A stretch of 64,000 nucleotides of DNA from Nocardioides marinus. GTDB lineage: Bacteria > Actinomycetota > Actinomycetes > Propionibacteriales > Nocardioidaceae. The stretch lies in contig NZ_JACBZI010000001.1 in the NCBI RefSeq assembly GCF_013408145.1, forward strand, positions 3,300,001 to 3,364,000. The letters run 5' to 3'. Shown piece after piece: positions 7,266 through 54,620 of the stretch. Position numbers and translations under genes: made by a program. Each line of letters opens with the position of its first letter. Within the stretch, counting starts at the first letter, position 1. The notes under the pieces are model-generated. The model was not told the DNA's origin and made no database searches. It saw nothing but the letters and a program-made list of their open reading frames with translations.

Positions 7266-8060
7266 TCAGTTCCGGGCCTGCGGGACTGTTGCAAGCTCAT
7301 CGAGGCGCGTGACAGCGGCGCGGTAGAGCGTCCAAGCAAGAAGGTAGGCATTGGCAACGCTGACCATGTCGGCCACGACGTTGGCCTCCGCCAAACCATC
7401 GGGTCCCTTGGCTCCCCACGAGGTTGACTGTCCCATCAGCGGCCAACCGAGGGCGTGTGCGTCGCCACCGAGGCGACGCCATTCGCGCACGGCCTCCCTG
7501 ACAAGAGGCGCGGTCGAGAAGACCTGCCGCGCGGCCTCTTCGACGATCAAGGTCGCGTTCAGTTTGAACTTCTTCGCTCGGAGGGCGGTGACCGCCTTCA
7601 GGTGCGTGTCGAGCTGTTTGAGCTGCTTGCCGGACCGGGCCGCGTCGTCGATGCTCAGCAAGTCCGGGGTGAGCTCGTGCTGCCACTGGATTCGTTTGCC
7701 TAGCCACTCCTGTGTCGTGGCTAGGCCACGTTCGCGGCGGTCGGCGGGGTCGCCGGGAGTCAGGAGCCACAGGGCTTCCGCCGAGCCGAGTAGAGCGCCG
7801 CGCAGCACCGAGTAGATCGCGGTGGGGAACGAGCGCTCCTGCTCGATTGTGAGACGCGTCAGATCCAGGTGATCCCATGCACAGACGAGGCACTGGCGGG
7901 CGTGAGAGGACAAGGGACTGCTCGGCCAAGTCTCGTCGTCCTCGGCAAGCGGGCTGCCGGTTGGGGGCGGGCTCGCGGTTGCCCAACGAGCGCGGTCCGC
8001 TTCAAGCTGATCGAAAGTGGATCGGATCTTCGCAATGGCGGCGTCGTCCTTATTGCTCAC
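7266..8060 (-). CDS. hypothetical protein of mobile element
   Basis: This 264-residue protein is unrecognised. It looks soluble and mainly helical, with runs such as RARWATASPP, LRGALLGSAEALWLL and ANAYLLAWTLYRAAVTRLDEL. No catalytic motif is visible. Its pattern, like that of the preceding gene, recalls helical proteins of unknown function common on actinobacterial genomic islands. It starts at GTG without a strong Shine-Dalgarno match. A gap of about 300 bases separates it from the next minus-strand gene downstream, so co-transcription is uncertain. Confidence 0.6.
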   Translation of the reverse strand: MSNKDDAAIAKIRSTFDQLEADRARWATASPPPTGSPLAEDDETWPSSPLSSHARQCLVCAWDHLDLTRLTIEQERSFPTAIYSVLRGALLGSAEALWLLTPGDPADRRERGLATTQEWLGKRIQWQHELTPDLLSIDDAARSGKQLKQLDTHLKAVTALRAKKFKLNATLIVEEAARQVFSTAPLVREAVREWRRLGGDAHALGWPLMGQSTSWGAKGPDGLAEANVVADMVSVANAYLLAWTLYRAAVTRLDELATVPQARN

Positions 8061-8210
8061 GTGGAAAGGCTAGGTGCGACCGTGGGCGCCGGCGCGCGCA
8101 AAGACGGGAGGAATCCTAGGGAGTCCCCCGTTTGCCCGACTGGAGTGAGTTGCGTCTTTTCCGCGAGTTGCCTGCAACTGGCTTCGACATCTGGTCTGAG
8201 CAGACCGCCA

Positions 8211-8639
8211 CTAAGCCCAACGATCTCGCTCTCTTTGCGCTTTGCGAGACGGCTGTGGCGAGCAGTCAGGATGGGCACTAGGGCCCATCGCTCGGTGACT
8301 GATGAAGGCCGCCAGGACGGGGTCGAGGGTTCCGCGAAGAAGCAACGTGATGGGCCTTTCACCACGTAGCGCTGACTTGGGAGAAGTCAGCCAAAACAGG
8401 GAGCTCTCGGCGTCGTATCCGCTCGCGTACATGAACCGGCACATCCAGGTCACTGACGGCGGGGAACCGTCGAGGAAGCGCGGAATCCACACTCGGTCTC
8501 CGTCCTGGACGCGTGGTGTCCACGCTGGCACCGAGCTTGACGGGACTGCCACCAGCCCCCAGTCTTGCTCGATTCCACGGAGCCTCCTCGCTCGGTAGGC
8601 ACGTGCCCTTGCCAACCCTGGCGACTCTGAGGCATTCAT
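8211..8639 (-). CDS. MbcA/ParS-like (DUF2384-type) antitoxin relative
   Basis: The 142-residue product has a C-terminal half that follows the MbcA/ParS/Xre antitoxin toxin-binding pattern. A segment with an 'input-to-output' strand (GDRVWIPRFLDG) is followed by SSLFWLTSPKSALRGERP and ITLLLRGTLDPVLAAFISH, matching the family's W..tP...L.G..P....L..G....V consensus. In characterised systems this protein neutralises an adjacent RES-domain toxin. No RES-like toxin is evident next to it, so it is an orphan, a repurposed regulator, or paired with an unknown partner. Start uncertain: an in-frame start lies 66 bases further upstream and neither has a good ribosome-binding site. Confidence 0.55.
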   Translation of the reverse strand: MNASESPGLARARAYRARRLRGIEQDWGLVAVPSSSVPAWTPRVQDGDRVWIPRFLDGSPPSVTWMCRFMYASGYDAESSLFWLTSPKSALRGERPITLLLRGTLDPVLAAFISHRAMGPSAHPDCSPQPSRKAQRERDRWA

Positions 8640-8742
8640 GCGAACCTGCGCGAGTCTTCGGTCCGGGCTGCCAACAACAGGAACCAGTGAACAGGCCCTA
8701 GACACCCTTGTCGCCTGAGTGCCGCGACCTGGAGCTGGGACT

Positions 8743-9597
8743 TCACAACGTTGCCCGCCCGCCGGACTCGCTAGCTTTCAAGAGTGGATCGTCAAGGTGT
8801 TCGGGCGTGACGATCCGGACTCCGGCTCCGGCAGCGACCATGAATCTGGCCAGGAGGTCCGGGTTGCTGTCCATGTAGGCAAGTACGAGCACTTCCGGTC
8901 TCGCGGCGATGATGTCACCCACGGGCGTATCGCGAACGGTGGCGTAGGCGGTCTCAAGGCCAAAGTCGTCGCGGGTCGATGCAGCGTAGTGCCGCGCGAC
9001 CACGGCGCACTCTCGAGCGTGGCCGACTCGACTCACAGCGACCCGATGATCGGGCGCGACACCCGTTGCGTCCTGGGGCAGACACCACCCAGACCCGCCA
9101 TAGCGGCCGATGTCGATCGCCCGGGCGATCGATGGGACGAGTCGCGAGGATCGCCAGTGGATGACATCGCCCCCGAGAGGTGCCTGTTGCCGGTACGGAT
9201 CCGTGAAGCGAATCAGGTTTCCCGACGCAGGAACGGGCACCTGCATAGAGCCCAGGTCGATGACAGTGGCGACGTACGGCCACTTGGTGCACCGTTCCAG
9301 GCCTTCGAGGTAGTCACCGACGTCCCACACTGTGACGTCTTGAACGAACCGTGCCGAGAGCAGGTCGGACATGTGCGTGGCTTCATCGTCATCACGGACC
9401 ACGACAACGACAGGGTCCCCCGTACTGGCGAGGGCAGCGGCAACTTCGGACGCGCACTCTGTTTTCCCGGAAGCGATGGGCGCCCATCCCTCGACAAGTC
9501 TGGCCCCCTCTTGCACCCACGCGACGATCTGCTCCCCAGCGGAACGCCAGCCGCTGTCTCGGGACTCGATGCCACATACCGCTCGTGGTTGTACCAT
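8743..9597 (-). CDS. hypothetical protein with Walker-A-like motif
   Basis: I cannot name this 284-residue protein. Around residues 39-48 it has APIASGKTEC, which resembles a phosphate-binding loop lacking the usual first glycine. Hydrophobic strands follow (VVVVVRDDDEA, VATVIDLGSM, VLVLAYMDSNPDLL), as expected for an alternating alpha/beta nucleotide-binding fold. The transcript would start at the operator inverted repeat, and the annotated ATG actually lies inside that repeat, so the true start may be further in. It is divergent from the excisionase-integrase pair. A function in element maintenance is only inferred from place. Confidence 0.5.
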   Translation of the reverse strand: MVQPRAVCGIESRDSGWRSAGEQIVAWVQEGARLVEGWAPIASGKTECASEVAAALASTGDPVVVVVRDDDEATHMSDLLSARFVQDVTVWDVGDYLEGLERCTKWPYVATVIDLGSMQVPVPASGNLIRFTDPYRQQAPLGGDVIHWRSSRLVPSIARAIDIGRYGGSGWCLPQDATGVAPDHRVAVSRVGHARECAVVARHYAASTRDDFGLETAYATVRDTPVGDIIAARPEVLVLAYMDSNPDLLARFMVAAGAGVRIVTPEHLDDPLLKASESGGRATL

Positions 9598-9609
9598 GTA
9601 TAAATGGTA
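9592..9609. promoter_or_regulatory. operator/promoter inverted repeat, copy 2
   Basis: Perfect arms and a TATA-containing centre: TACCAT-GTATAA-ATGGTA. On the minus strand it reads TTATACATGG toward the Walker-A-like gene. On the plus strand it also offers TATAAAT toward the excisionase-integrase pair about 70 bp downstream, so it could control both divergent units. Confidence 0.7.
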
Positions 9610-9676
9610 TCAAACGGCCTACGCCTTTCTTCCCTCCCTCGACCCTTCGACCGATCGACCTGCCGATGACTCCGTC

Positions 9677-9883
9677 ATGCCGCAGGAACCAACCGGAACC
9701 AACCACGAGTGCTGCGAGGCACTCTGGAGCGTTGAGCAGTTGAGCGACTACCTCCAGGTCCCGATCCAGACGCTGTACGCCTGGCGATCACGAGGCACCG
9801 GACCGCGCTCTCTCCGAGTGGGGCGATACGTCCGCTATCGGCACGGCGACGTGGCTGCATGGCTCGCCGGAAGGGCCGAGTGA
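9677..9883 (+). CDS. xis: excisionase / MerR-type helix-turn-helix DNA-binding protein
   Basis: This 68-residue protein is a single winged-helix HTH_17 domain: WSVEQLSDYLQVPIQTLYAW, then RSRGTGPRSLRVGRYVRYR and DVAAWLAG. That is the usual form of small excisionases encoded just before tyrosine integrases in actinobacterial elements, where they bend attachment-site DNA and favour excision. Its TGA stop overlaps the integrase ATG (TGATG), so the two are translationally coupled. The start codon is the ATG nearest the domain; a longer in-frame reading begins inside the operator repeat and is not credible. Confidence 0.85.
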   Translation: MPQEPTGTNHECCEALWSVEQLSDYLQVPIQTLYAWRSRGTGPRSLRVGRYVRYRHGDVAAWLAGRAE

Positions 9884-11103
9884 TGGGCCGCCCACGAACC
9901 CCCCTCGGGGCACACGGATCCATCACCAGCCGACGCACCAACGCCGGAGCGTGGGAGGCGCGGACTCGCGTGCGCGACGCGGACGGCCGGGTCCGGGCGG
10001 TTACCCGTCGCGCCGCGACACGAAGCAAGGCCGAGGTCGCCCTCCTCGAGGCGATCCAGGACCGAGTGGGCGCGAGAGCAGGCCGACTCACGCGGTCGTC
10101 AACGCTACAGAGCGTCGGCGAGCGATGGCTTGCCGAACGCCGGCTCGACGTGACCGCAGGAGACCTCACACACGGCTCCTACGACAGGTACGAGCACGCA
10201 CTGGTGAAGCACATCAATCCGGCGTTGGGCATGCTGTCGGTTGGTGAGATCACGCCGGGACGGATCGCGGCGTACTTGAAGGCCACTGAACGGAACTCGA
10301 AACTGATCCGCACCGTGCTGAGCCAGGTGTTGGGCTTCGCCTATGTCGAAGGGGCCATCGCCACCAACCCGGCACTCGGCATCCGAACACGGCACGGGCG
10401 GGATCGAAGCCCCAAGCCCGCCATGTCCTTGGACGATCTCCTCGATGTGGTGGCGGCCATCGATCTATGGGAGGCCGAACCTTCTACTCGCGAGTCCCAG
10501 CGCACGCGACGCTCCATCCCCCTGCGCGACATCTTCGAGCTCCTCATGGGCACCGGATGCCGGATCAGCGAAGCGCTCGCGCTCACGTGGCTCGATGCCG
10601 ATCTCACGACTGGCCAGCTCCAGATCGGACCCACCTTGGAGATTCGTCGCGCCGCGGACGGGGGCCTGACCAGGAAGCCAACCCCGAAGTCGTACGCAGG
10701 CGCGAGGCAAGTCGCGGTTCCACCCGAGGTGCTAGCGATGCTCAAGCGACGTCGCGACGCCGTCGGGAGCATTGCCACTGGCGCGCCGATCTTCGCGTCC
10801 ACGTCCGGCGGCTTCATCTCCCCGACGAACGTCCGGACGGCCTGGCGGGACGCGCGTGCCGCGTACGCGGAATCAACGGGGCGCAACCTGGATTGGATCG
10901 GCCCGCACTCCTTCAGGCGGACACTTGGGACGCACCTCGTGGAGGACCTAGGGGTGGAGCAGGCGAGCAAGGTCCTGGGCCACGCCAACACCGCAACGAC
11001 CCTCGCGCACTACTGGGACCGGCGAGCGGGCGTAGTGACAGCCACCGACACCCAACGTCGCCTCTCGGCCGCGTGGACCAAGGGCGTGACCGAACCTGGC
11101 TAG
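9883..11103 (+). CDS. int: tyrosine site-specific recombinase (integrase)
   Basis: This 406-residue phage/ICE-type integrase has an N-terminal arm-binding region, a SAM-like core-binding domain (residues about 75-165) and a catalytic domain. The catalytic tetrad is complete: Arg227 in GTGCRISEAL, His342 and Arg345 in HSFRRT, His367 in LGHAN and Tyr377 in LAHYWDRR. It integrates the element, probably into the tRNA 3' end seen duplicated at 15820-15848. GGAAGGG lies before the chosen ATG, which overlaps the excisionase stop. Unusually, it lies about 5 kb from the nearer attachment site rather than beside it. Confidence 0.93.
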   Translation: MGRPRTPLGAHGSITSRRTNAGAWEARTRVRDADGRVRAVTRRAATRSKAEVALLEAIQDRVGARAGRLTRSSTLQSVGERWLAERRLDVTAGDLTHGSYDRYEHALVKHINPALGMLSVGEITPGRIAAYLKATERNSKLIRTVLSQVLGFAYVEGAIATNPALGIRTRHGRDRSPKPAMSLDDLLDVVAAIDLWEAEPSTRESQRTRRSIPLRDIFELLMGTGCRISEALALTWLDADLTTGQLQIGPTLEIRRAADGGLTRKPTPKSYAGARQVAVPPEVLAMLKRRRDAVGSIATGAPIFASTSGGFISPTNVRTAWRDARAAYAESTGRNLDWIGPHSFRRTLGTHLVEDLGVEQASKVLGHANTATTLAHYWDRRAGVVTATDTQRRLSAAWTKGVTEPG

Positions 11104-43721: not shown

Positions 43722-45806
<2,085 letters not shown>

Positions 45807-45903
45807 GGACTTCTCTCGTTGTGTGCACGACTGAACTGACGACGGTACCGGTCGTCGCGCCGCCCATCCTCTCAGGCGGCTGGTCGCGCGGTCCCCTGAG
45901 GAC

Positions 45904-45953
45904 GGGTCGTGCCCCTGAGCGGGCGCCATGGCGCCCGCTCAGGGGCACGACCC
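45904..45953. terminator. 50-bp perfect palindrome between hpt and ftsH
   Basis: All 50 bases form one self-complementary run (arms GGGTCGTGCCCCTGAGCGGG, centre GCGCCATGGCGC). It lies just beyond the hpt stop codon and upstream of ftsH, so it can act as the hpt terminator or as a cruciform. Confidence 0.8.
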
Positions 45954-45967
45954 ACCCAGTGGGGGGC

Positions 45968-46519
45968 TCAGCTGTAGACGTGCGGGGCGAGGGTGCCGAT
46001 GTCACGCAGGTTGCGGTACTTCTCGCGGTAGTCCAGCCCGTAGCCGACGACGAACTCGTTGGGGATGTCCCAGCCGACGTACTTGACGTCGACGGGCATC
46101 TGCAGCGCCTCGGGCTTGCGCAGCAGGGTGGCGATCTGGACGCTCGCGGGGTTGCGGCTGGTGAGGTTGGAGGTCAGCCACGACAGCGTCAGGCCGGTGT
46201 CGATGATCTCGTCGACGATGACGACGTGGCGCCCGGAGATGTCGGTGTCGAGGTCCTTGAGGATGCGCACGACGCCGCTGGACTTGGTGCCCGAGCCGTA
46301 GGAGCTGACCGCCATCCAGTCCATCTCGATGTGGCGCGAGAAGGAGCGGGCCAGGTCGGCCATCACCATGACGGCGCCGCGCAGGATGCCGACGATGAGC
46401 AGCTCCTCGCCCTCGTAGTCCCGCTCGATCTCCTGGGCCATCTCCTGCAGTCGCTGCTGGATCTGGGCCTCGGTGAACAGCACGTTGACGAGGTCGTTCT
46501 CCACGTGGGCAGAGTCCAT
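45968..46519 (-). CDS. hpt: hypoxanthine phosphoribosyltransferase
   Basis: The 183-residue enzyme salvages hypoxanthine and guanine with PRPP. The PRPP loop is VVIVDEIIDTGLTLSWL; the N-terminal block is LLIVGILRGAVMVMADLARS and the C-terminal purine region is YVGWDIPNEFVVGYGLDYRE. In many actinobacteria hpt directly follows tilS; here two secreted-protein genes lie between. Confidence 0.96.
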   Translation of the reverse strand: MDSAHVENDLVNVLFTEAQIQQRLQEMAQEIERDYEGEELLIVGILRGAVMVMADLARSFSRHIEMDWMAVSSYGSGTKSSGVVRILKDLDTDISGRHVVIVDEIIDTGLTLSWLTSNLTSRNPASVQIATLLRKPEALQMPVDVKYVGWDIPNEFVVGYGLDYREKYRNLRDIGTLAPHVYS

Positions 46520-46560
46520 GGCGAGCAGCCTACGGCCGGGGGATCGGGTGGGGGGAAGCG

Positions 46561-46581
46561 GGCGGGCGCACCGCGCCCGCC
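46561..46581. terminator. short hairpin downstream of the 248-residue secreted protein gene
   Basis: GGCGGGCGC and its complement GCGCCCGCC enclose a 3-base loop ACC. It lies downstream of the secreted-protein gene on the minus strand and just upstream of hpt. Confidence 0.65.
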
Positions 46582-46612
46582 GCCCTGGGGCGCCGCCCGG
46601 CCACCGGGGGCG

Positions 46613-47359
46613 TCATCGAGCGTGCCGGGCCGATCGGGCCACGACGACCTTGACCTTCTTGGCGCGCGACGGCTTGAGGCCCTCGGTGCCGGTGAAGAGC
46701 ACCGTGAGGTGGTGGGTGCCCTTGGGCAGCCGCCCCAGGTCGACCTTCACCGAGCCCTTGTCGGAGCGCTTGAGGCGCTGGTTGGCCAGGACCCTGCGTC
46801 CCTCCAGCACCTTCACCCGGCCGCCGTCGACGCGGGTCCTGCGGCTGCCGACGTCCACCGTCAGCTTCACGCGCTGCTTCGGCGCGACCACGGGGTCGAC
46901 CACGGAGGCTGCGGTCGTGGTGGGCCAGTCGCGCAGGGCGAGGGTGATCGGCCCCAGGCTGGTCGGGGCCTTGCGGCGGGCGGTCACGTCGGCGAGGAGG
47001 CCCGCGTCGTACCCGCGCTTGACCAGCACGACGTCGTACGTGCCGGGGTCGACGTGGAGGTAGAAGTAGCCGTGCTGCGGGCCGGTGGGACGGTCGCTGG
47101 CGTAGGTGAGGGCGGAGGCGACCGGCTCGCCGGTGCGGGCGTCGAGAGCCTGGACCGCGACGTCGTCGATGCCCCTGCCCGCGGAGTCGACCGCGACGCC
47201 CTGGATGAGCCCGGCCCTCTCCACCACCGCGGGAACCTCGTCGTGGTCGTCGTGGTCGTCCTCGAGGTCGTCGTGCGCCGACGCCGCGGCTGGCAGCAGC
47301 AGCGCCGGGAGGAGGAGCGTCATGACGGCCAGCCGGGCCGGGCGGGTGGTGCGGTGCAT
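46613..47359 (-). CDS. secreted carboxypeptidase-regulatory-like/Ig-like protein
   Basis: The 248-residue protein has a signal peptide (MHRTTRPARLAVMTLLLPAL to about residue 28, cleavage near AAASAHD). The mature N-terminus is a His/Asp cluster (HDDLEDDHDDHDEV). A CarboxypepD_reg-like domain follows (LIQGVAVDSAGRGIDDVAVQ ... HGYFYLHVDPGTYDVVLV), then an Ig-like 3 domain (RVKLTVDVGSRRTRVDGGRV ... LGRLPKGTHHLTVLFTGTEG). The second domain matches the C-terminal domain of the 1620-residue neighbour. Secreted or surface-exposed; function unknown. The tail is lysine- and arginine-rich. Confidence 0.78.
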   Translation of the reverse strand: MHRTTRPARLAVMTLLLPALLLPAAASAHDDLEDDHDDHDEVPAVVERAGLIQGVAVDSAGRGIDDVAVQALDARTGEPVASALTYASDRPTGPQHGYFYLHVDPGTYDVVLVKRGYDAGLLADVTARRKAPTSLGPITLALRDWPTTTAASVVDPVVAPKQRVKLTVDVGSRRTRVDGGRVKVLEGRRVLANQRLKRSDKGSVKVDLGRLPKGTHHLTVLFTGTEGLKPSRAKKVKVVVARSARHAR

Positions 47360-47474
47360 CAGGGTCCTCGTCTTCTGCTCGTCGATCGCGGCGCGATCGT
47401 CCCCCGCCACGATGGTCGGCCTCACGACCGCGGTCCTGAGGCGGAATCGCTGACTCTTTGCCCGGGCGCGGCAA

Positions 47475-47505
47475 CGCCGGCCCGACCGTGCAGGTCGGAC
47501 CGGCG
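47475..47505. terminator. hairpin downstream of the 1620-residue secreted protein gene
   Basis: CGCCGG and CCGACC pair with their complements across a GTGCA loop, one mismatch inside a 13-bp stem. It lies between the large secreted-protein gene and the smaller one. Confidence 0.7.
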
Positions 47506-47536
47506 TCACCGATGAGCCGGGGTCGGGCGCCTCGAC

Positions 47537-50500
47537 TCAGAGCAGGGTGGGCATCGGCCGGCCCCCACCGAACCGCGAGCCCTTGTCCTTGCCCTTGTTC
47601 TTCTTGCCCTTCGACTTCTTGGTGACCTCCAGGGTCCCCGCATCGTCGGACGAGGCGAGGGTGGCGTCGTCACCGGAGTAGCTGACACCCACCTCGTGCT
47701 TGCCGGGCCTGAGCTTCGGCAGACGGATCTTCAGCGTGCCGTTGTCGGCTTCGCTGAGCTCCACCTCCACGCTCTTGCGGCCCGCGGTCACCGTGACGAC
47801 GCCCGTCGGAGCCGCCTCGGCGGCGCTGGCGACCTTCACCTTGACCAGGCCGCGGTTGCCCTCCTTCACCTTCTTCCCCAGCAGACGGGCCCTGGTCACC
47901 GACTCGACCGGGGGCAGGGTCACCAGGACGCCGTCGGCCATGGCCGAGCCGTCCTCGTGACCGTCCTTCGACGCAGTGACCTCCGCGGCCAGCTCGGTGC
48001 CCGGGTCGTCCTCGGTGACGACGTACGTCGCCTCCGTGGCCCCCTCGATCACCTCACCGTCGCGCAGCCACTGATAGCCGAAGGTCAGGTCCTCCAGGTC
48101 CCACTCGCCGTCGGAGACCGTGAGGGTCTCCCCCAGCTCGGGGGTCCCGGTGATCGCGGGCTTGGCGCTGTTCTGCGGCGCTGCACCCTTCTCGACGGTC
48201 ACCGGGTCGGAGGTCGCCGTGCCCGGGGTGGAGCCGGGCCTGGTCGCGGTGACCTTGACACTGACCGGCTTGCCCATGTCCGCGACACCCGGGGTGTACT
48301 CCGCGGCGGTGGCACCCGCGATGGGCGTCCCGTCACGCAGCCACTGGTAGGCGAAGGTCAGGCCATCGGTGCTCCAGGTGCCCTGGCTGGCTGCGAGGGC
48401 ACCACCCACCACGGCGTCACCGGTGATGGCTGGCTTGACCGTGTTGGTGATGGTCGGCGTCGGGGTGGGGTTGCCACCGCCCGGGGCTGCAGCCACGGGT
48501 GCCGTCGTGACCGTCGCGAACGTCTCGTCGAAGCTGACGAGATCACCGTCCTCCCGGTTCTCCTGTCGGTAGTCGGGCCGCTTGCCGAAGGACCGCACCG
48601 TCAGGGCTTGTCCCGCGTCGGCCGCGGTCGGGGTGTACGTCGCACCCGTGCCCACCACGGTCACTCCCCGTAGCCACTCGATCCGCGTCGAGGCGATCAG
48701 CCCGGGCCAGGTCGCGGGCGTGGCGGTGAGCAGCGACCCGACCTGCACGGTGCCGTTGACCGTAGGCTCCGTCCCCGGCGTGACGGTCGCGCCGGTGCAC
48801 TGCATCTTGATCAGCAGTGCCAGACGCTCAGGGGGCACCGGCATCTCACTGGTACTGGTGTCGGTGCACCCGGGCCGGGTGGCGTCGACACGGTAGTGCC
48901 CCGACTGGACGAACCAGGCGAAGGCACCGTCGTCGCCCAACGGATGCGGGTTGACCCGGTTCGCCGGCGACATGATGGCGCTGCCGTCCGGCACCGCCGC
49001 GAACGGACCGCCGGCCGTGTCGGAACGCATCAGGGTCGCCGTGACCCCCGAGAGCGGCAGACCGAACTGGTCGGTCACCGTGCCCGAGGGGTCGATGTAG
49101 ACGTCGAACCCGGCCGGCGCCGCGCCGTCCTCACAGCTCGAGGGCACGTTCGTCGAGAACGATCCCTCACCTGCGAGCGGGAAGGGTGCGCGCGCGGAGG
49201 CCGAGTAGGTGCCCTCGGGCGATTCCGTCATGGAACCCTCGTCGACCACCGTGCCTCCGACCGTGAAGCTGAAGGTCGGAGCCTCGAACCCCGGGCAGCC
49301 GAGGACGCTGACGGCGAGGTCGGTCCGCCAGTACATCTGGAGGACGCCGTCCTCCCTCACGTACGGCGCGAACCCGCTGGTGTCCGAGCCCGGGGCCGTG
49401 CCGACCGTCGCGCTGGGCGGCACCGCCCGCGGCTCCCTCAGCATGATCGGCGTCGCCGTCAGGTCGGTCGTCTCCCCCGCCACGACCCGGCCGTAGCCCA
49501 CGCCGGCGAAGAAGCGTGATCCGGACGGCGGGCTGACCCGCAGGGTGTAGCGGTCAGCAGTGTTCTCCGTGCCGTTGGCCACGAGACCGACGACGGTGAA
49601 CCGTCCCTCGGCGTCCGTGGGCACCGAGCCCGAGCACCGGGTCTGCCCGGACACCAGACGGCAGGGCTCGACCAGGGCGCCGGCCACCCCGGCGCCACCG
49701 TTCTCGGCCGTGACCCTGCCGGTGAGGCTCCCGAGGAGCTGGGCTACGGAGCCGTTGAGGACCGAGAAGTTGTACCGACCCGCCCGGCCGCCCGCGTTGA
49801 GGCTGTTGCCCACCAGCGCGTGCTGGCCGCTGTCGAGCAGCGCACCGTTCTCGAGCGATCCCGGCAGCTGCACCACGGTGCCGGGAACGTCGGGGGTACC
49901 GGCAGTGAAGCCGGCGAGTGCACTCGTTCCGCCCAGGCCGTTCTCACCGTCCGAGGCGTCCCCGGTCTCCCACTGCACGCGGTCGTAGTTGAACTGGATG
50001 TCGAAGTCACCGGCTTCCCGGTCTGCCGAGACGGCCTTGGTGAGGATCAGCTGGAAGCTGTTCAGCTTGTCGGCGTGCGAGCCGTAGTAGCCGACATCGG
50101 TCCAGTTGACGCACAGCTTGTTGCCCGCCGCGTTCGTGCCGTAGGTGACCACGTTCGAGTCCTCGTGACGCGTGTCGACATCCGCGAAGAACGGGGCGAT
50201 GATCGGGGGCCCGTCGTAGCTCCCCCCGTCGCCGAAGGCCGACGGGGTGTAGGTGCTGAGACGCTCGCCGAAGGTCACGTTGCCGTTGTTGTTGACGAAG
50301 AGCTCGGGGTAGCTCTGCCCGAAGAAGCTCAGCGCGAAGGGCACCTCGACCGGCCCGGTCGAGCCGTCGTCGTTGCGGTCGAGGAACCGAGACAGACAGA
50401 AGTCGTGGTCGACGCCGTACTCACCCGCGACGGGCGTCCCGAACGAGGTGAGCTGCCGGGTGAGGGTGATGCTGCCGAGATCCACCGGCGCGAGGTCGTC

Positions 50501-52399
50501 GCCGACCACCACGGAGCTCGCGGGTGAGGGCTCGCTCGGCATCTCCGCCGAGCCGCCGAGGAAGACCGGCTGCATGCCGGCCCGCAGGTAGCGGAACGTG
50601 TAGGTGCCGGCCGGGACGTGCGCGACGACGCGGCCGTCGTCACCTCCCAGGGCCTCCTCCTGCGCGACCCACCTGTCGCCGTCCCACCGGTAGGGCATCA
50701 CGATCGGGCCGGCGACCGGGTCTCCGGCACGGGTGCGCACCACGGCGCCGACCTCGGCAGCGGGCTCGGGACACCCCTCGCACACCCAGTCGGTGACGAG
50801 GTCAGGCATCCGACCGACCGCCAGGTCCGGCAGGGGGAAGGTCAGAGCCTCGAGCGGGTCGTCGACCAGGCCGCCGTCATCGCTCAGGCACCAGGTGGCG
50901 TTGCCGTAGTCGACGGACGACCAGACGCACACGGTGTATCGAGCGTCGGGGTTGCTCGTCCTCTGAGTCCCGATGCCATACGTCGGCCCGGTGGCGTAGT
51001 CGGTCCCAGCCTGGATGGCCTCACCGTCCGCGATCCGGTAGATGTCCACGTAGAAGTCATGGAGAACCGGGTTGCCACGGAGGTCGACCACGTCACCCTC
51101 GATGGTGGCCCCGTCGACGACGATGTCGTCCAGGACGATGTGGCCGGAGGGAGGCGTCACGGCGCGGCGGGCCGATTCCTCGTCACCGACGTTCCCGTAG
51201 CAGGCGGTCACACCGGCCGGGCCGTAGGTCCGACCACACACGGAGTACTCCTCCTGGGGCCGGGCGACCTCGAAGGCGAACTCGCCGTCGGCTGCGTCGA
51301 ACATGCGGGCGTCGCGCCACAGGATCCGCTCGTCGCCGGGCTGCTCCCCCGCCACGTAGCGCACGAGGAACACATGGCGCATGGCCACTGCCTGGCCGTC
51401 GTGGTCGACGAACCGCCCAGAGACCCCGACGGTGTCCCACACGATGGTGGGCGCCTCGGCTCTCTCAGCCGGGGCGAGCTCGACGGCGTGGTCCCGGCTC
51501 GGACGGTCGCCTCCGAGGCATCGCTGCGAGTACTGACGAGCCGAGCAGACCGTGAAGCTCCCCGGCAGGCGGTCACCGGGAACCGCTACCGTGTAGCGTC
51601 CCTCAGCGTTCGTCACGGTACGGATCTTGCGCGCGAACCCCCTTCCGCCGAGCTCATAGACCTTGACGCGAGAGTTCGCGAGCGGCGTGCCGTCGGCAGT
51701 CCTGACCAGGCCGGTGAGCGTGCCCCGAGGAAGGCGCAGGGTCCACGATCCGGTCCACACGGTGCGGCCGGGAGCGACGTCGAGGTAGCCGGTCGACATG
51801 CGTGCATAGGTTCCGGCTGGATCGACGAATCGGAGCCTCAGAGCTCCTGCCGGGAGGTGCAGCTCGAAGTACCCGTGGTCGACGTCCGGGCCGGCGTAGG
51901 TGCGCGCCGTGGCCACGACCTCCCCCTCGCGGAGGGCCTGGACCACGACGTCGTCGACCGGCGATCCGCCCGGAGCGCGGACCTGCCCGGTGACGACCGA
52001 GTCCTCGTCCGTACGCCCCAGCAACACCCGGCCGAGGTCGATCGGGTCGCCACCCGTGACGGCGACGCGGGCTCCCGCGCCGGGTCCGTGCCAGCGACTG
52101 GTGTACCCGGCAGGGGCCGAGTACAGGAACCGGTACGTGCCGTCGGGGAGCGTCATGCCGAAGGCGCCGTCCTCGCCCGTGACCGCAGTGGCAGCCTCGG
52201 CGTCCGGGGCATCGACGTCGTACGCCTCCACGACCACTCCTTGGAGCGGGCCGCGGCTGGCCACGTCCCCGACGAAGCCGTTCACCACCGTCGTCCCCGG
52301 CGGATCTGCGTGAGCGGGGCTGGTGGACATCAGGGTGGCCATCACGAGGAGCAGGCCGAGAAGCACTGCCAGGGGACGACGTTCTGCACGTGGGGGCAT
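47537..52399 (-). CDS. giant secreted multi-domain surface protein
   Basis: The 1620-residue protein has a clear signal peptide (LAVLLGLLLVMATLMSTSPA, cleavage after AHA at about residue 31). Then come at least six CarboxypepD_reg-like beta-sandwich repeats (residues about 35-650; e.g. VVNGFVGDVASRGPLQGVVV and GTLTGLVRTADGTPLANSRV), a nidogen-like domain (about 670-890: VEVPFALSFFGQSYPELF, NNNGNVTFGERL), two more regulatory-like domains, three copies of a YQWLRDG repeat (about 1250-1480), an Ig-like domain and a Lys-rich tail ending GGGRPMPTLL. No LPXTG motif or membrane anchor is seen, so it is released or held non-covalently. No catalytic site is seen; adhesion or matrix roles are plausible. 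Shares its Ig-like domain with the smaller downstream gene. Confidence 0.85.
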   Translation of the reverse strand: MPPRAERRPLAVLLGLLLVMATLMSTSPAHADPPGTTVVNGFVGDVASRGPLQGVVVEAYDVDAPDAEAATAVTGEDGAFGMTLPDGTYRFLYSAPAGYTSRWHGPGAGARVAVTGGDPIDLGRVLLGRTDEDSVVTGQVRAPGGSPVDDVVVQALREGEVVATARTYAGPDVDHGYFELHLPAGALRLRFVDPAGTYARMSTGYLDVAPGRTVWTGSWTLRLPRGTLTGLVRTADGTPLANSRVKVYELGGRGFARKIRTVTNAEGRYTVAVPGDRLPGSFTVCSARQYSQRCLGGDRPSRDHAVELAPAERAEAPTIVWDTVGVSGRFVDHDGQAVAMRHVFLVRYVAGEQPGDERILWRDARMFDAADGEFAFEVARPQEEYSVCGRTYGPAGVTACYGNVGDEESARRAVTPPSGHIVLDDIVVDGATIEGDVVDLRGNPVLHDFYVDIYRIADGEAIQAGTDYATGPTYGIGTQRTSNPDARYTVCVWSSVDYGNATWCLSDDGGLVDDPLEALTFPLPDLAVGRMPDLVTDWVCEGCPEPAAEVGAVVRTRAGDPVAGPIVMPYRWDGDRWVAQEEALGGDDGRVVAHVPAGTYTFRYLRAGMQPVFLGGSAEMPSEPSPASSVVVGDDLAPVDLGSITLTRQLTSFGTPVAGEYGVDHDFCLSRFLDRNDDGSTGPVEVPFALSFFGQSYPELFVNNNGNVTFGERLSTYTPSAFGDGGSYDGPPIIAPFFADVDTRHEDSNVVTYGTNAAGNKLCVNWTDVGYYGSHADKLNSFQLILTKAVSADREAGDFDIQFNYDRVQWETGDASDGENGLGGTSALAGFTAGTPDVPGTVVQLPGSLENGALLDSGQHALVGNSLNAGGRAGRYNFSVLNGSVAQLLGSLTGRVTAENGGAGVAGALVEPCRLVSGQTRCSGSVPTDAEGRFTVVGLVANGTENTADRYTLRVSPPSGSRFFAGVGYGRVVAGETTDLTATPIMLREPRAVPPSATVGTAPGSDTSGFAPYVREDGVLQMYWRTDLAVSVLGCPGFEAPTFSFTVGGTVVDEGSMTESPEGTYSASARAPFPLAGEGSFSTNVPSSCEDGAAPAGFDVYIDPSGTVTDQFGLPLSGVTATLMRSDTAGGPFAAVPDGSAIMSPANRVNPHPLGDDGAFAWFVQSGHYRVDATRPGCTDTSTSEMPVPPERLALLIKMQCTGATVTPGTEPTVNGTVQVGSLLTATPATWPGLIASTRIEWLRGVTVVGTGATYTPTAADAGQALTVRSFGKRPDYRQENREDGDLVSFDETFATVTTAPVAAAPGGGNPTPTPTITNTVKPAITGDAVVGGALAASQGTWSTDGLTFAYQWLRDGTPIAGATAAEYTPGVADMGKPVSVKVTATRPGSTPGTATSDPVTVEKGAAPQNSAKPAITGTPELGETLTVSDGEWDLEDLTFGYQWLRDGEVIEGATEATYVVTEDDPGTELAAEVTASKDGHEDGSAMADGVLVTLPPVESVTRARLLGKKVKEGNRGLVKVKVASAAEAAPTGVVTVTAGRKSVEVELSEADNGTLKIRLPKLRPGKHEVGVSYSGDDATLASSDDAGTLEVTKKSKGKKNKGKDKGSRFGGGRPMPTLL

Positions 52400-52473
52400 C
52401 AGGCACCTCGGGGTGAGTGGAGTCAGACCCGCGAAAGTAAAGAGAGTGCTAGTACCGCTCGACTAGAAGCAAG

Positions 52474-52509
52474 GTAAAGAAATGGCCCGTTCGGACTAGA
52501 CGGGGCCAT
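52474..52509 (-). terminator. intrinsic terminator after tilS
   Basis: On the minus strand, ATGGCCCCGT and ACGGGCCAT pair around a CTAGTCCGA loop (one bulge), followed by TTCTTTAC. This is the most classical hairpin-plus-U-tract terminator in the window and separates tilS from the giant secreted-protein gene. Confidence 0.8.
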
Positions 52510-52530
52510 AGACCAGCCCGAGATAGATGA

Positions 52531-53559
52531 CTACGGGGTAGCCCCGCGGGTACCCCGGCCGGTATCGGTCGGGGCCACCCCCACCCGGCCGTCCCGGCGG
52601 AGGCCGCGCAGGTGCCCGGGGAGGTCGATCCACTGCTGGCCGCGCCATGCGGTGACGAGGGAGTCCAGGGCGAGCACGTGCTCGTGGAACAGCTCGGCGG
52701 GCGGGGCGCCGGCCTCGAGGGCGAGGCGGCGCAGCAGCCGGGTCCGGATCGCGGCGGGCAGCTGCTCGAGGTCGGCCACGGGGAGGCCAGCAGCACCGGA
52801 GGGATGCGCCGGCTCTGCCAGGAGGCGGTCGTAGTGGTGGTCGGCGAGGTCGTCGAGGCAGTCGGCGTCGGCGCGCAGCTGCTGCGCCGTACGTGCCAGG
52901 GCGGCGGCGACGCCGGGACCGAGGTTCTCCTCTAGCGCGGGCAGCACCGCGCGGCGCACGCGGACGCGCGCGTAGCCGGGGTCGGCGTTGTGCGGGTCGT
53001 CCCAGGCGTCGAGGCCGAGCACCTGGCAGGCGGTGACCGTGTCGTCGCGCGGCAGGTCGAGGAAGGGCCGCCGGTAGACGTCGAACGCGCGGCGCATCCC
53101 GGCCAGCGACCGGGCGCCGGAGCCGCGGGCCAGGCCGAGCAGGACGGTCTCGGCCTGGTCATCACGCGTGTGCCCGAGCAGTACGACGCCGGCGGCCGTG
53201 TGCTCGGCCACCTGGTCGAGCACGGCGTACCGGGCCCTGCGGGCCGCCGCCTCGGGCCCGAGCCCGCCGGGGTCCACCGTGACCCGGGCCGCGAGCGTCT
53301 CGTCGACCCCGATGTCGGCCATCTGCTCGACCACGCGAGCCGCCTGGGCCTGCGAGCCGTCCTGCATCCCGTGGTCGACGGTCGCACCGACGACCCGCCA
53401 ACCACCGGCCCGGGCCTCGTGGACCGTGGCGGCGACCAGCGCCAGCGAGTCGGGGCCACCGGAGCAGGCCACGACGACGGTGGAGCCGGACGGCAGGTCG
53501 GCCAGGCAGCGGCGTACCGCCAGCCGGGTCGCGGCGACGGAGGGGTGCGGACCGGCCAT
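52531..53559 (-). CDS. tilS: tRNA(Ile)-lysidine synthetase
   Basis: The 342-residue enzyme modifies C34 of a tRNA-Ile so that it reads AUA. The N-type PP-loop is VVACSGGPDSLAL; other family blocks are VGATVDHGMQDGSQAQAARV, LLGHTRDDQAETVLLGLARG and RRPFLDLPRDD. The C-terminal TilS substrate-binding domain is short, as in actinobacteria. ATG chosen by homology-like N-terminus MAGPHPSVAATRLAVRR. It lies five bases after the metalloprotease gene, but its downstream partner hpt is displaced by the secreted-protein pair. Confidence 0.94.
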   Translation of the reverse strand: MAGPHPSVAATRLAVRRCLADLPSGSTVVVACSGGPDSLALVAATVHEARAGGWRVVGATVDHGMQDGSQAQAARVVEQMADIGVDETLAARVTVDPGGLGPEAAARRARYAVLDQVAEHTAAGVVLLGHTRDDQAETVLLGLARGSGARSLAGMRRAFDVYRRPFLDLPRDDTVTACQVLGLDAWDDPHNADPGYARVRVRRAVLPALEENLGPGVAAALARTAQQLRADADCLDDLADHHYDRLLAEPAHPSGAAGLPVADLEQLPAAIRTRLLRRLALEAGAPPAELFHEHVLALDSLVTAWRGQQWIDLPGHLRGLRRDGRVGVAPTDTGRGTRGATP

Positions 53560-53564
53560 CGGGC

Positions 53565-54620
53565 TCAGAGGACGCGGGCGACCCAGGCGGCCGGGTCGCC
53601 GATCTCGGCCTTCGTGGGGAGGTTGTCGGGGCCGGCGAAGACGGCGTTGAACTCCTCCATGCCGACCTTGTCGACGACGTGGCGCACGAAGGCGGCGCCG
53701 TCGCGGTACTGCGCCATCTTGGCCTCGAGCCCCAGCAGCCGGCGCAGCAGCCGGTCGAGGGTGCCGACGCCCTTGCGGCGCTCGGTGAACTGACGGCGGA
53801 TCTCGGCGACGGTCGGGATCACCGTCGGGCCCACGCCGTCCATCACGACGTCGGCGTGGCCCTCGAGCAGCGACATCACGCCGGTGACCTTGTCGAGGAT
53901 CTCGCGCTGGGCCGGTGTGGAGAGCAGCTCCATGACCGAGCCGGAGCCGCCGTCGCCCGAGCGGCGCGCCCTGAGCGCCTCGACCACGCGGCCCAGGCCG
54001 TCCTCGACCAGCTCGCGGGAGTCCATCGTCGCGGCGAGCTCCTCGACGAGGGAGTGGATGTGGTCGCGCATCCACGGCACCGCGGTGAACTGCACCCGGT
54101 GGGTCTCCTCGTGCAGGCACACCCACAGCCGGAAGTCGTGCGGGTCGACCCCGAGCTCGCGCTCGGTGTGGACGATGTTGGGTGCGACCAGCAGGAGTCG
54201 CCCCGACGGCTCGTGGAACGGGTCGAACTGGCCCAGCACCTTGCCGGCCAGGAACCCGAGCAGCCCGCCGACCTCGGCGCCGGTGACCCGCCGGCCCACC
54301 GCGAGCGAGAGGCCCGAGGGCGGCTTGCGCTCGGAGAGCTTGGCCGCGATCGGCGAGAGGATGGTGCGGAAGCCCTCGGCGTTGGCCCGCACCCAGCCCG
54401 GGCGGTCCACGACCAGCACGGGCGCGGTGCCGTCGCCACCGTCGAGACCGGTGAACTCACGCACCAGCGGCGTCGAGCGCTCCGCACCCGCGCGCAGCTC
54501 GGTCACGGCGTCGGCGGCCTCGGCCCACGACACCTTGGGGCCTTCCCCCGCGAGCCGCGAACCCAGCGAGACCGCGAGGTCCCAGTCGACCATGTCCGGG
54601 ACCGTGGCTGGCGCGCTCAT
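53565..54620 (-). CDS. zinc-dependent metalloprotease (coenzyme F420 biosynthesis-associated family)
   Basis: The 351-residue protein has a HExxH-like metal site in [18 protein letters not shown] and a downstream [13 protein letters not shown], typical of the actinobacterial zincin family found next to tilS. It looks cytosolic, with no signal peptide. The substrate is unknown. ATG taken at [15 protein letters not shown]; a longer frame has no ribosome-binding site. It starts ten bases after dacB stops, so dacB, this gene and tilS are probably one operon. Confidence 0.88.

Follow-up and report, generated by a model that had tools for sequence, protein, structure and literature searches.

Why do two genes for secreted proteins lie between tilS and hpt in Nocardioides marinus, and did they come to this place together? 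The window, i.e. the whole 64,000-nucleotide stretch of DNA that was analysed, belongs to genome G000 (other G-numbers denote other sampled genomes), and on its minus strand the gene order is tilS, an ORF of 1620 aa, an ORF of 248 aa, hpt and ftsH, the two ORFs filling the interval between tilS and hpt. Both had been proposed, as secreted proteins, in an earlier note made from the DNA letters; both are confirmed as ORFs and both have a signal-peptide-like start, as judged by eye rather than by a predictor. The features of the locus are as follows.

43722..45929, minus strand: ftsH
45968..46519, minus strand: hpt, the right border (TIGR01203, 202.7 bits, cut-off 150)
46613..47359, minus strand: small secreted CpR (carboxypeptidase-regulatory-like) and Ig-like protein, 248 aa (ATG at 47359, stop ending at 46613)
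47470..47510, minus strand: strong, terminator-like hairpin after the large gene, without U-tract (z -3.9)
47537..52399, minus strand: large secreted mosaic protein, 1620 aa (ORF and Pfam domains)
47540..48514, minus strand: conserved C-terminal stalk of the large protein with Ig-like repeats, Big_3_5 (aa 1512-1593) and basic tail
48515..52399, minus strand: putatively exchangeable N-terminal module (codons 1-1295) with signal peptide, CpR domains, NIDO and a DPSG-type domain
49760..50119, minus strand: NIDO (nidogen-like) domain, best stretch aa 761-880 (PF06119, E 2.3e-25)
52416..52530, minus strand: 3' hairpin of tilS together with the large gene's leader/promoter region (from the alignment with G016)
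52531..53577, minus strand: tilS, the left border (TIGR02432, 133.8 bits, cut-off 93.6)

The spacing of the junction was surveyed in 98 Nocardioides genomes from named relatives and could be measured in 96 of them. In 66 of the 96, tilS and hpt are separated by less than 200 bp, and in 25 the gap is 700 bp or more. The two genes are thus nearly adjacent in most sampled congeners; the accessory genes occupy a normally closed junction, and compared with the majority of the genomes sampled those in the window are inserted. Of the 25 long gaps, 17 contain genes of one secreted-protein type and the remaining eight other cargo. A large gene (>950 aa) is present at the junction in only 6 of the 98 genomes, i.e. 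most relatives do not carry the same pair here, and among these six NIDO and the small gene occur together solely in G000 and G085.

The small gene has a history of its own. Across 215 genomes of the genus, its family yields 35 strong matches (E up to 1e-23), distributed over 34 genomes, and 32 of the 35 lie inside the tilS-hpt interval; in a 120-genome sample of the taxonomic family matches at E up to 1e-20 are confined to one of 26 genera. The small gene family is thus an older, clade-wide resident of this interval. The insertion of accessory genes proposed in the earlier note holds in so far as extra genes lie in a normally closed junction, but the pair did not enter as one module, the small family being the resident and the large gene having a separate, mosaic history.

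CpR and Ig-like domains had been ascribed to both proteins, which is correct for the large protein by Pfam cut-offs. The small protein, queried one codon short at its start, stays below both, with 20.9 bits for CarboxypepD_reg (cut-off 32.3) and 34.2 bits, just under the cut-off of 35.5, for Big_3_5. Its domain reading is nevertheless backed by an alignment of 13 relatives, within which the proteins of G000 and G016 are 90% identical, by an AlphaFold2 model (pLDDT 83.4) and by Foldseek, which matches the protein with the carboxypeptidase D transthyretin-like domain (5aq0_B; target TM 0.84, rmsd 2.3). Ig-like folds match broadly in such searches, and the whole-protein structural alignments are poor.

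In the large protein, CarboxypepD_reg (PF13620; four stretches, E 4.9e-20, 72.1 bits, cut-off 32.3), Big_3_5 (PF16640; E 6.2e-9, 36.7 bits, cut-off 35.5) and NIDO (90.1 bits, cut-off 25) all pass in the Pfam search. NIDO, the strongest of its domains, had been absent from the earlier domain list. A structure model of the NIDO region reached moderate confidence only (pLDDT 71.2) and its fold search gave little beyond general Ig-type matches (query TM at most 0.18); sequence searches against solved structures returned CpR-type or weak matches. The large gene of G000 matches, with its second CpR region, the small gene of G016 at 63% over 252 columns (blastn, E 1.6e-10), and from this match the large and small genes appear to be akin.

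How the large gene became a mosaic is suggested by comparison with G016, the nearest sampled relative. The upstream flanks of the two genomes are 87.0% identical over 1,293 columns, up to a point some 17 bp short of the start codon; the identity resumes in a Gly-rich linker and continues through hpt (85.7%, 2,706 columns). Between these flanks lie 3.9 kb for which G016 has no comparable counterpart apart from weak matches of 58-68%. G016 thus shares the leader region, the C-terminus and the small gene and differs in the N-terminal part, which comprises about 1,700 residues and gives no blastp match to the N-module of G000 at E 1e-5. CarboxypepD_reg domains are present in both N-modules, so that these are not unlike throughout. 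On this comparison, the first 1295 codons of the large gene appear to have been replaced by another module between G000 and G016. Neither genome was found to hold the module of the other: in G000, a search at E 1e-8 with the G016-type module, in which 5 of 16 first-look candidates were scored, came back empty, and in the 87%-complete assembly of G016 the NIDO module has no match at E 1e-25.

The assembly of G016 comes from a Red Sea metagenome and is 87% complete, in about 60 contigs, and the comparison of the sisters thus depends on a single contig. Its contig might be a chimera of two genomes, which would make the swap an artefact; we regard this as highly improbable, as the reading frame stays open over both joints, the boundaries fall in the vicinity of the start codon and in a domain linker, and the same module type is found in the same slot of another species, G059.

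The N-modules of G059 and G016 are 53-56% identical, and G097 carries the NIDO type, its module being 51% identical to that of G000. The C-terminus of G000 is 80% identical at the protein level to that of G016 and 45-49% identical to those of G097 and G059. In a tree of Hpt and FtsH (30 of the 98 genomes, chosen by best Hpt match; midpoint root, the rows of G009 and G079 filled less than half), G000 and G016 are grouped (98/94) and G097 and G059 are placed elsewhere, i.e. N-module kinship runs across this grouping. On the tree NIDO requires three changes and SLTN two, a scatter no different from that of shuffled labels, so that the tree statistics alone are no proof of exchange. The slot harbours further types: An_peroxidase, RTX and fn3 in G065, the small gene alone in G013, the sister of G065, and, in G206, the small gene next to a protein of 1072 aa that contains 10 CpR stretches.

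Alternatively, whole large genes may have been inserted independently at a permissive junction, their common C-terminus being a widespread Ig-repeat tail, without any exchange of modules. The other cargo in eight of the long gaps would fit this, as would long NIDO-module matches away from the slot in 7 of 10 genomes and the finding that some part of the large protein is matched at E 1e-5 in at least 96 of 98 genomes, the Ig repeats being the part mostly hit among the matches listed. We nevertheless consider independent insertion unlikely, since it would not be expected to produce both ends in common, and in G000 and G016 leader and C-terminus are as similar as the flanks (86-87% in DNA; 80% in protein for the C-terminus) around a middle that is not recognisably related.

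The interval might also be the cargo of a mobile element, as hinted at by an HNH-nuclease gene adjoining the peroxidase-type gene in G065, by a transposase-like reading frame after tilS in G037 (recognised by eye) and by the GC3 of the large gene (0.89), the lowest among five genes measured. The overall GC of both genes lies inside the range of their neighbours, however, and neither of the two ORFs that fill the interval has a recombinase match in Pfam, which makes this origin very unlikely. Carriage by plasmid or phage is likewise unsupported: at E 1e-10 none of 50,697 phage records matches the NIDO module, and a search of 72,556 plasmid records at E 1e-20 turned up a single match, over just 17% of the query.

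Each gene had been described as bounded by terminators, which applies clearly to the large gene only. None of 200 shuffles folds as well as the hairpin behind it, and a long hairpin directly 3' of the large gene is also seen in G016, G097, G059 and G065 and less clearly in G085 (minimum-free-energy folds without shuffle control). The U-tract terminator ascribed to tilS is present as a hairpin with a T-rich tail, but with 22 of 200 shuffles folding as well it is weak (z -1.2). Between the small gene and hpt, the sequence is no more stably folded than its shuffles, 174 of 200 of which do as well (z +1.0). A pattern scan for minus-strand terminators in 45500-54000 found none, and the two Rfam matches in 45900-54000 are both far under the cut-offs, so that no known RNA element was assigned.

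The leader region is conserved between G000 and G016 nearly up to the start codon of the large gene and contains the 12-mer CTCTTTACTTTC (52433-52444). Each of G000, G016 and G097 has a single copy of it, directly upstream of the large gene, so that the 12-mer looks like a single-locus element; as the mark of a shared regulon it was rejected on the same grounds. Overall, it has 8 matches in 7 of 98 genomes (reversed-pattern control, 3 matches). A 20-base pattern nearby is exact only in G000 and G016 and is found with up to two mismatches in 7 of 98 genomes.

Taken together, we consider it probable that the tilS-hpt junction of this Nocardioides clade serves secreted proteins of CpR/Ig type as a resident slot, in which leader and stalk of the large gene are conserved and the N-module between them is exchanged. 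A small CpR and Ig-like gene would have settled between tilS and hpt during the history of the clade, and the larger genes beside it may have arisen through domain addition or amplification. After the split of G000 and G016, the N-module, i.e. signal peptide and ligand-facing domains, would have been replaced as one cassette in one lineage, either that of G000 or that of G016, bordered by the conserved leader region on one side and the stalk of Ig repeats, Big_3_5 and basic tail on the other. The difference between the modules may thus be caused by recombination, the simplest route being homologous recombination with a gene sharing leader and Gly-rich linker. A more far-reaching version, which we hold to be possible though doubtful, is a dedicated head-swapping locus, at which the whole head including the signal peptide would be traded between species via these two regions of homology; related Nocardioides would then bind different partners, be it surfaces, glycans, phages or kin.

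The domain composition of the proteins fits an extracellular binding role, in line with the surface role suggested earlier, the binding itself being inferred. Export would proceed via the signal peptide, and the basic tail of the large protein (net charge +8 over the final 30 residues) may retain it in the wall, the LPxT[GAS] sortase motif being absent from both proteins. The front domains may form an adhesive or matrix/polysaccharide-binding head under selection for ligand change, and the different front halves on the same rear half in close relatives suggest that binding is changed by module swapping. Secreted carbohydrate-active proteins, too, contain CpR/transthyretin-like and Ig-like domains, and among the structures that Foldseek places near the small protein are a putative carbohydrate-binding protein and one chain of a cohesin/X-dockerin complex. 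Hence the proteins could be secreted factors for matrix formation or nutrient capture (polysaccharide binding) rather than adhesins, a reading that we regard as tentative, given that Pfam detects no catalytic domain above cut-off in either protein and that pilin-type folds rank at the top for the small protein, albeit among widely matching Ig-like folds (query TM at most 0.34 among the 50 listed).

The proposed resident slot is testable, since its place is known in many species and the head of the secreted protein varies while the rest is constant, which allows close relatives to be compared in their ligand specificity. The slot may also display growth stages of giant repeat proteins, from single gene and gene pair via domain amplification to mosaic giant. 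A literature search covering part of the subscription journals and no preprints gave, among the titles listed, none on a tilS-hpt secreted-protein locus; a listed paper on FtsH in Streptococcus mutans contains the terms tilS, hpt, ftsH and intergenic (PMC8112672).

Like other secreted bacterial NIDO proteins, the large protein is a multi-domain protein with NIDO well over the Pfam cut-off, but it differs from them in joining NIDO to a CpR/Ig stalk at a fixed locus, where relatives carry other heads. In animal nidogen, NIDO is accompanied by EGF and basement-membrane partners, whereas the large protein has no EGF domain among its Pfam matches down to E 0.1. Stacked Ig-like and transthyretin-like domains behind a leader peptide recall the Ig-repeat/CnaB-type adhesins and pilins of Gram-positive bacteria such as BcpA and SpaD, which are among the top-ranked folds, although the structural matches are weak and general; unlike the sortase-anchored members, the window proteins lack an LPXTG-type motif. 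Mosaic or antigenically variable surface-protein loci combine a variable front with a constant rear at one locus, as does the tilS-hpt slot, but here the variation is seen between species, each represented by one genome, and no silent donor was found in G000 among the candidates scored. Finally, accessory-gene insertion hotspots occur between conserved genes, and the normally closed tilS-hpt junction, whose cargo varies by genome, resembles them; it differs in that 17 of its 25 long gaps hold one type of secreted protein.

On the 4.11-Mb contig of Nocardioides marinus (G000), the minus-strand gene order within the window is tilS, a 1620-aa ORF, a 248-aa ORF, hpt and ftsH, i.e. two ORFs do lie between tilS and hpt, as the earlier note had stated; tilS, hpt and ftsH all score above their NCBIfam cut-offs. 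The two intervening genes are:

47537-52399, minus strand: large gene, 1620 aa
46613-47359, minus strand: small gene, 248 aa

The carboxypeptidase-regulatory-like (CpR) and Ig-like domains that the note had assigned to both proteins are clear in the large one, which combines CarboxypepD_reg domains with a NIDO domain (E 2.3e-25) and with Ig-like repeats preceding a C-terminal Big_3_5 domain, and which ends in a basic tail (net charge +8 across 30 residues). In the small protein the CpR-like and Big_3_5-like regions each stay below the Pfam cut-off, and the two-domain reading draws support from aligning 13 relatives, from an AlphaFold2 model with a mean pLDDT of 83.4 and from Foldseek, which matched the protein to the transthyretin-like domain of carboxypeptidase D (5aq0_B). 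A motif search found no LPXTG-type motif in either protein. At E 1e-5, 96 of 98 genus genomes match some stretch of the large protein, chiefly its Ig-like repeats among the matches listed.

Hpt and TilS were searched in the same 98 genomes, 96 of which have both on one contig and strand; the other two are G037, with the junction divided between two contigs, and G076, with no TilS match. The tilS-hpt gap is <200 bp in 66/96, 200-699 bp in 5/96 and at least 700 bp in 25/96, i.e. the proximity claimed earlier is usual in relatives, with exceptions. Reading of ORFs and searches places CpR/Ig-type genes in 17 of the 25 long gaps, including G097 with a large gene alone and G082 with a divergent 400-aa CpR gene. 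The remaining eight (G070, G071, G045, G005, G007, G053, G003 and G067) hold other cargo, which includes a glyoxalase-like gene in G003 and a globin-like gene in G067.

Several junctions have features of their own. Response-regulator genes fill those of G071 (locus L075), G045 (L076) and G077 (L094), accompanied in the first two by a histidine-kinase gene; Pfam confirms the G071 regulator and both kinases, the other regulators being recognized by eye. G070 (L074) carries two similar ~400-aa genes side by side, sulfotransferase-like by eye, the first giving no Pfam match. The ~312-aa junction genes of G005 (L080) and G007 (L081) resemble one another, and that of G005 has a weak sub-cut-off match to a restriction-endonuclease-like family. 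In G037 (L099, L098) a transposase-like reading frame (by eye) follows tilS at the assembly break. In G253 (L188, 7203-7905) hpt is immediately followed by a further Hpt match, partial in extent (residues 136-183, 75%), which suggests a partial duplication.

A profile built from 13 small proteins and run on the wider genus set gives 35 strong matches (E up to 1e-23) in 34/215 genomes, and 32 of these 35 lie in the tilS-hpt interval, two of them (G037, G265) on contigs that stop short of tilS; G206 and G261 have a further secreted gene between match and hpt. The three outside are in G038, G004 and a second copy of G253. Weaker matches (E up to 1e-8) cover mostly the Ig-like part only, among the matches listed, and in a family sample of 120 genomes just 1/26 genera yields matches at E up to 1e-20. 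The small gene is partial or frame-disturbed in G013 and G065. In a tree of Hpt and part of FtsH (30 of the 98 genomes) the 13 genomes without junction CpR/Ig genes cluster, requiring 5 changes versus a shuffled mean of 10.0, and 0/500 shuffles reach so few, as would be expected of a clade-wide resident small family.

A large secreted gene (>950 aa) occupies the junction in only 6/98 genomes and comes in different types ("SLTN" is a label coined here from a sequence motif); a further large protein is found in G206, beyond the 98:

Large genes at the tilS-hpt junction
NIDO type: G000, G097, G085
SLTN type: G016, G059
Animal-type haem peroxidase with RTX repeats and fn3: G065
L198 (G206) 7877-11095, minus strand: 1072-aa protein with 10 CarboxypepD_reg stretches, beside the small gene

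The G206 protein may be an amplification, in the same slot, of the small protein's domain type. ORF reading and the small-protein search found no recognisable small gene in G097. In G065 (L069, 6228-7538) an HNH-nuclease gene lies between the large and small genes; its sister G013 has neither nuclease nor large gene.

The closest sampled relative of G000 is G016, a metagenome assembly, and the two DNAs match on both sides of a bounded difference. Identity is 87.0% across 1,293 columns that begin in tilS and stop ~17 bp before the large-gene start codon; the next 3.9 kb give no comparable match; a further 2,706 columns, which start at codon ~1296 and take in the small gene and hpt, are 85.7% identical. 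The right boundary lies at a Gly-rich linker ahead of the Ig-like repeats. Weak extra matches (58-68%) fall in repeat/CpR regions or other GC-rich coding DNA, and one of them links the large gene of G000, in its second CpR region, with the G016 small gene (63%, 252 columns, E 1.6e-10). The N-terminal modules (heads) of G000 and G016 each include CarboxypepD_reg domains, yet a protein search at E 1e-5 does not match them to each other; head identity is 51% for G000-G097, 36% for G000-G085 and 53-56% for G016-G059. The C-terminal part (stalk) of G000, in contrast, is 80% identical to that of G016 and 45-49% to those of G097 and G059. As the tree makes G000 and G016 sisters (98/94) and places G097 in a group with G013 and G065 (98/95), head kinship disagrees with tree and stalk kinship, so head type appears not to follow species. 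The tree has three NIDO rows and two SLTN rows, too few for label shuffles to distinguish the head scatter from chance, and the case for exchange rests on comparing heads and stalks in pairs. This comparison is compatible with either G000 or G016 as the recombinant; since NIDO is present in G085, G097 and G000, we prefer an ancestral NIDO head that was replaced in G016.

NIDO-module matches (E up to 1e-25) occur in 20/215 genomes. Placement covers the ten with long matches (>550 residues), of which three are at the junction and seven elsewhere, i.e. with no tilS or hpt match within the 7.5-10.5 kb examined. The SLTN module is found in 6/98 genomes. G016 and G059 have it at the junction, G057, G083 and G002 at other sites (contig positions set against Hpt/TilS match positions), and the G097 large gene contains a weak match. 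Heads are thus present also in genes at other sites in other species. The SLTN search gave no match in G000 at E 1e-8, with 5 of 16 initial candidates scored, and no silent head copy was found in that genome.

The terminators proposed around each gene hold in part: folding shows a strong hairpin 3' of the large gene (z -3.9), a weak one at tilS (z -1.2) and no surplus structure in the 93-bp small gene-hpt spacer (z +1.0). Hairpins 3' of the large gene also occur, judged on the fold alone, in G016, G097, G059 and G065. The tilS-large gene spacer is conserved between G000 and G016, including a 27-base identical run, and contains the 12-mer CTCTTTACTTTC, which likewise precedes the large gene of G097 and has no other site in these three genomes; four other genomes hold five more matches, the reversed control pattern giving three. 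We infer that the large gene is a transcription unit of its own, and the small gene may be read together with hpt. Because hpt directly follows tilS in most sampled congeners, its transcription here must depend on a different start or on read-through.

Position, small-family residence, differing heads in one slot and the borders of that difference are observed; for the working of the locus we propose that recombination would exchange the head, the signal peptide would export the protein, basic tail and stalk would hold it at the wall, and the head would bind a ligand. The solved structures ranked highest are Ig stacks resembling pilins and adhesins, with poor whole-protein alignments, and such fold matches do not establish function. 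In titles and the opening parts of abstracts, neither the tilS-hpt slot locus nor its head exchange was found, and each component of the locus is of a known kind.
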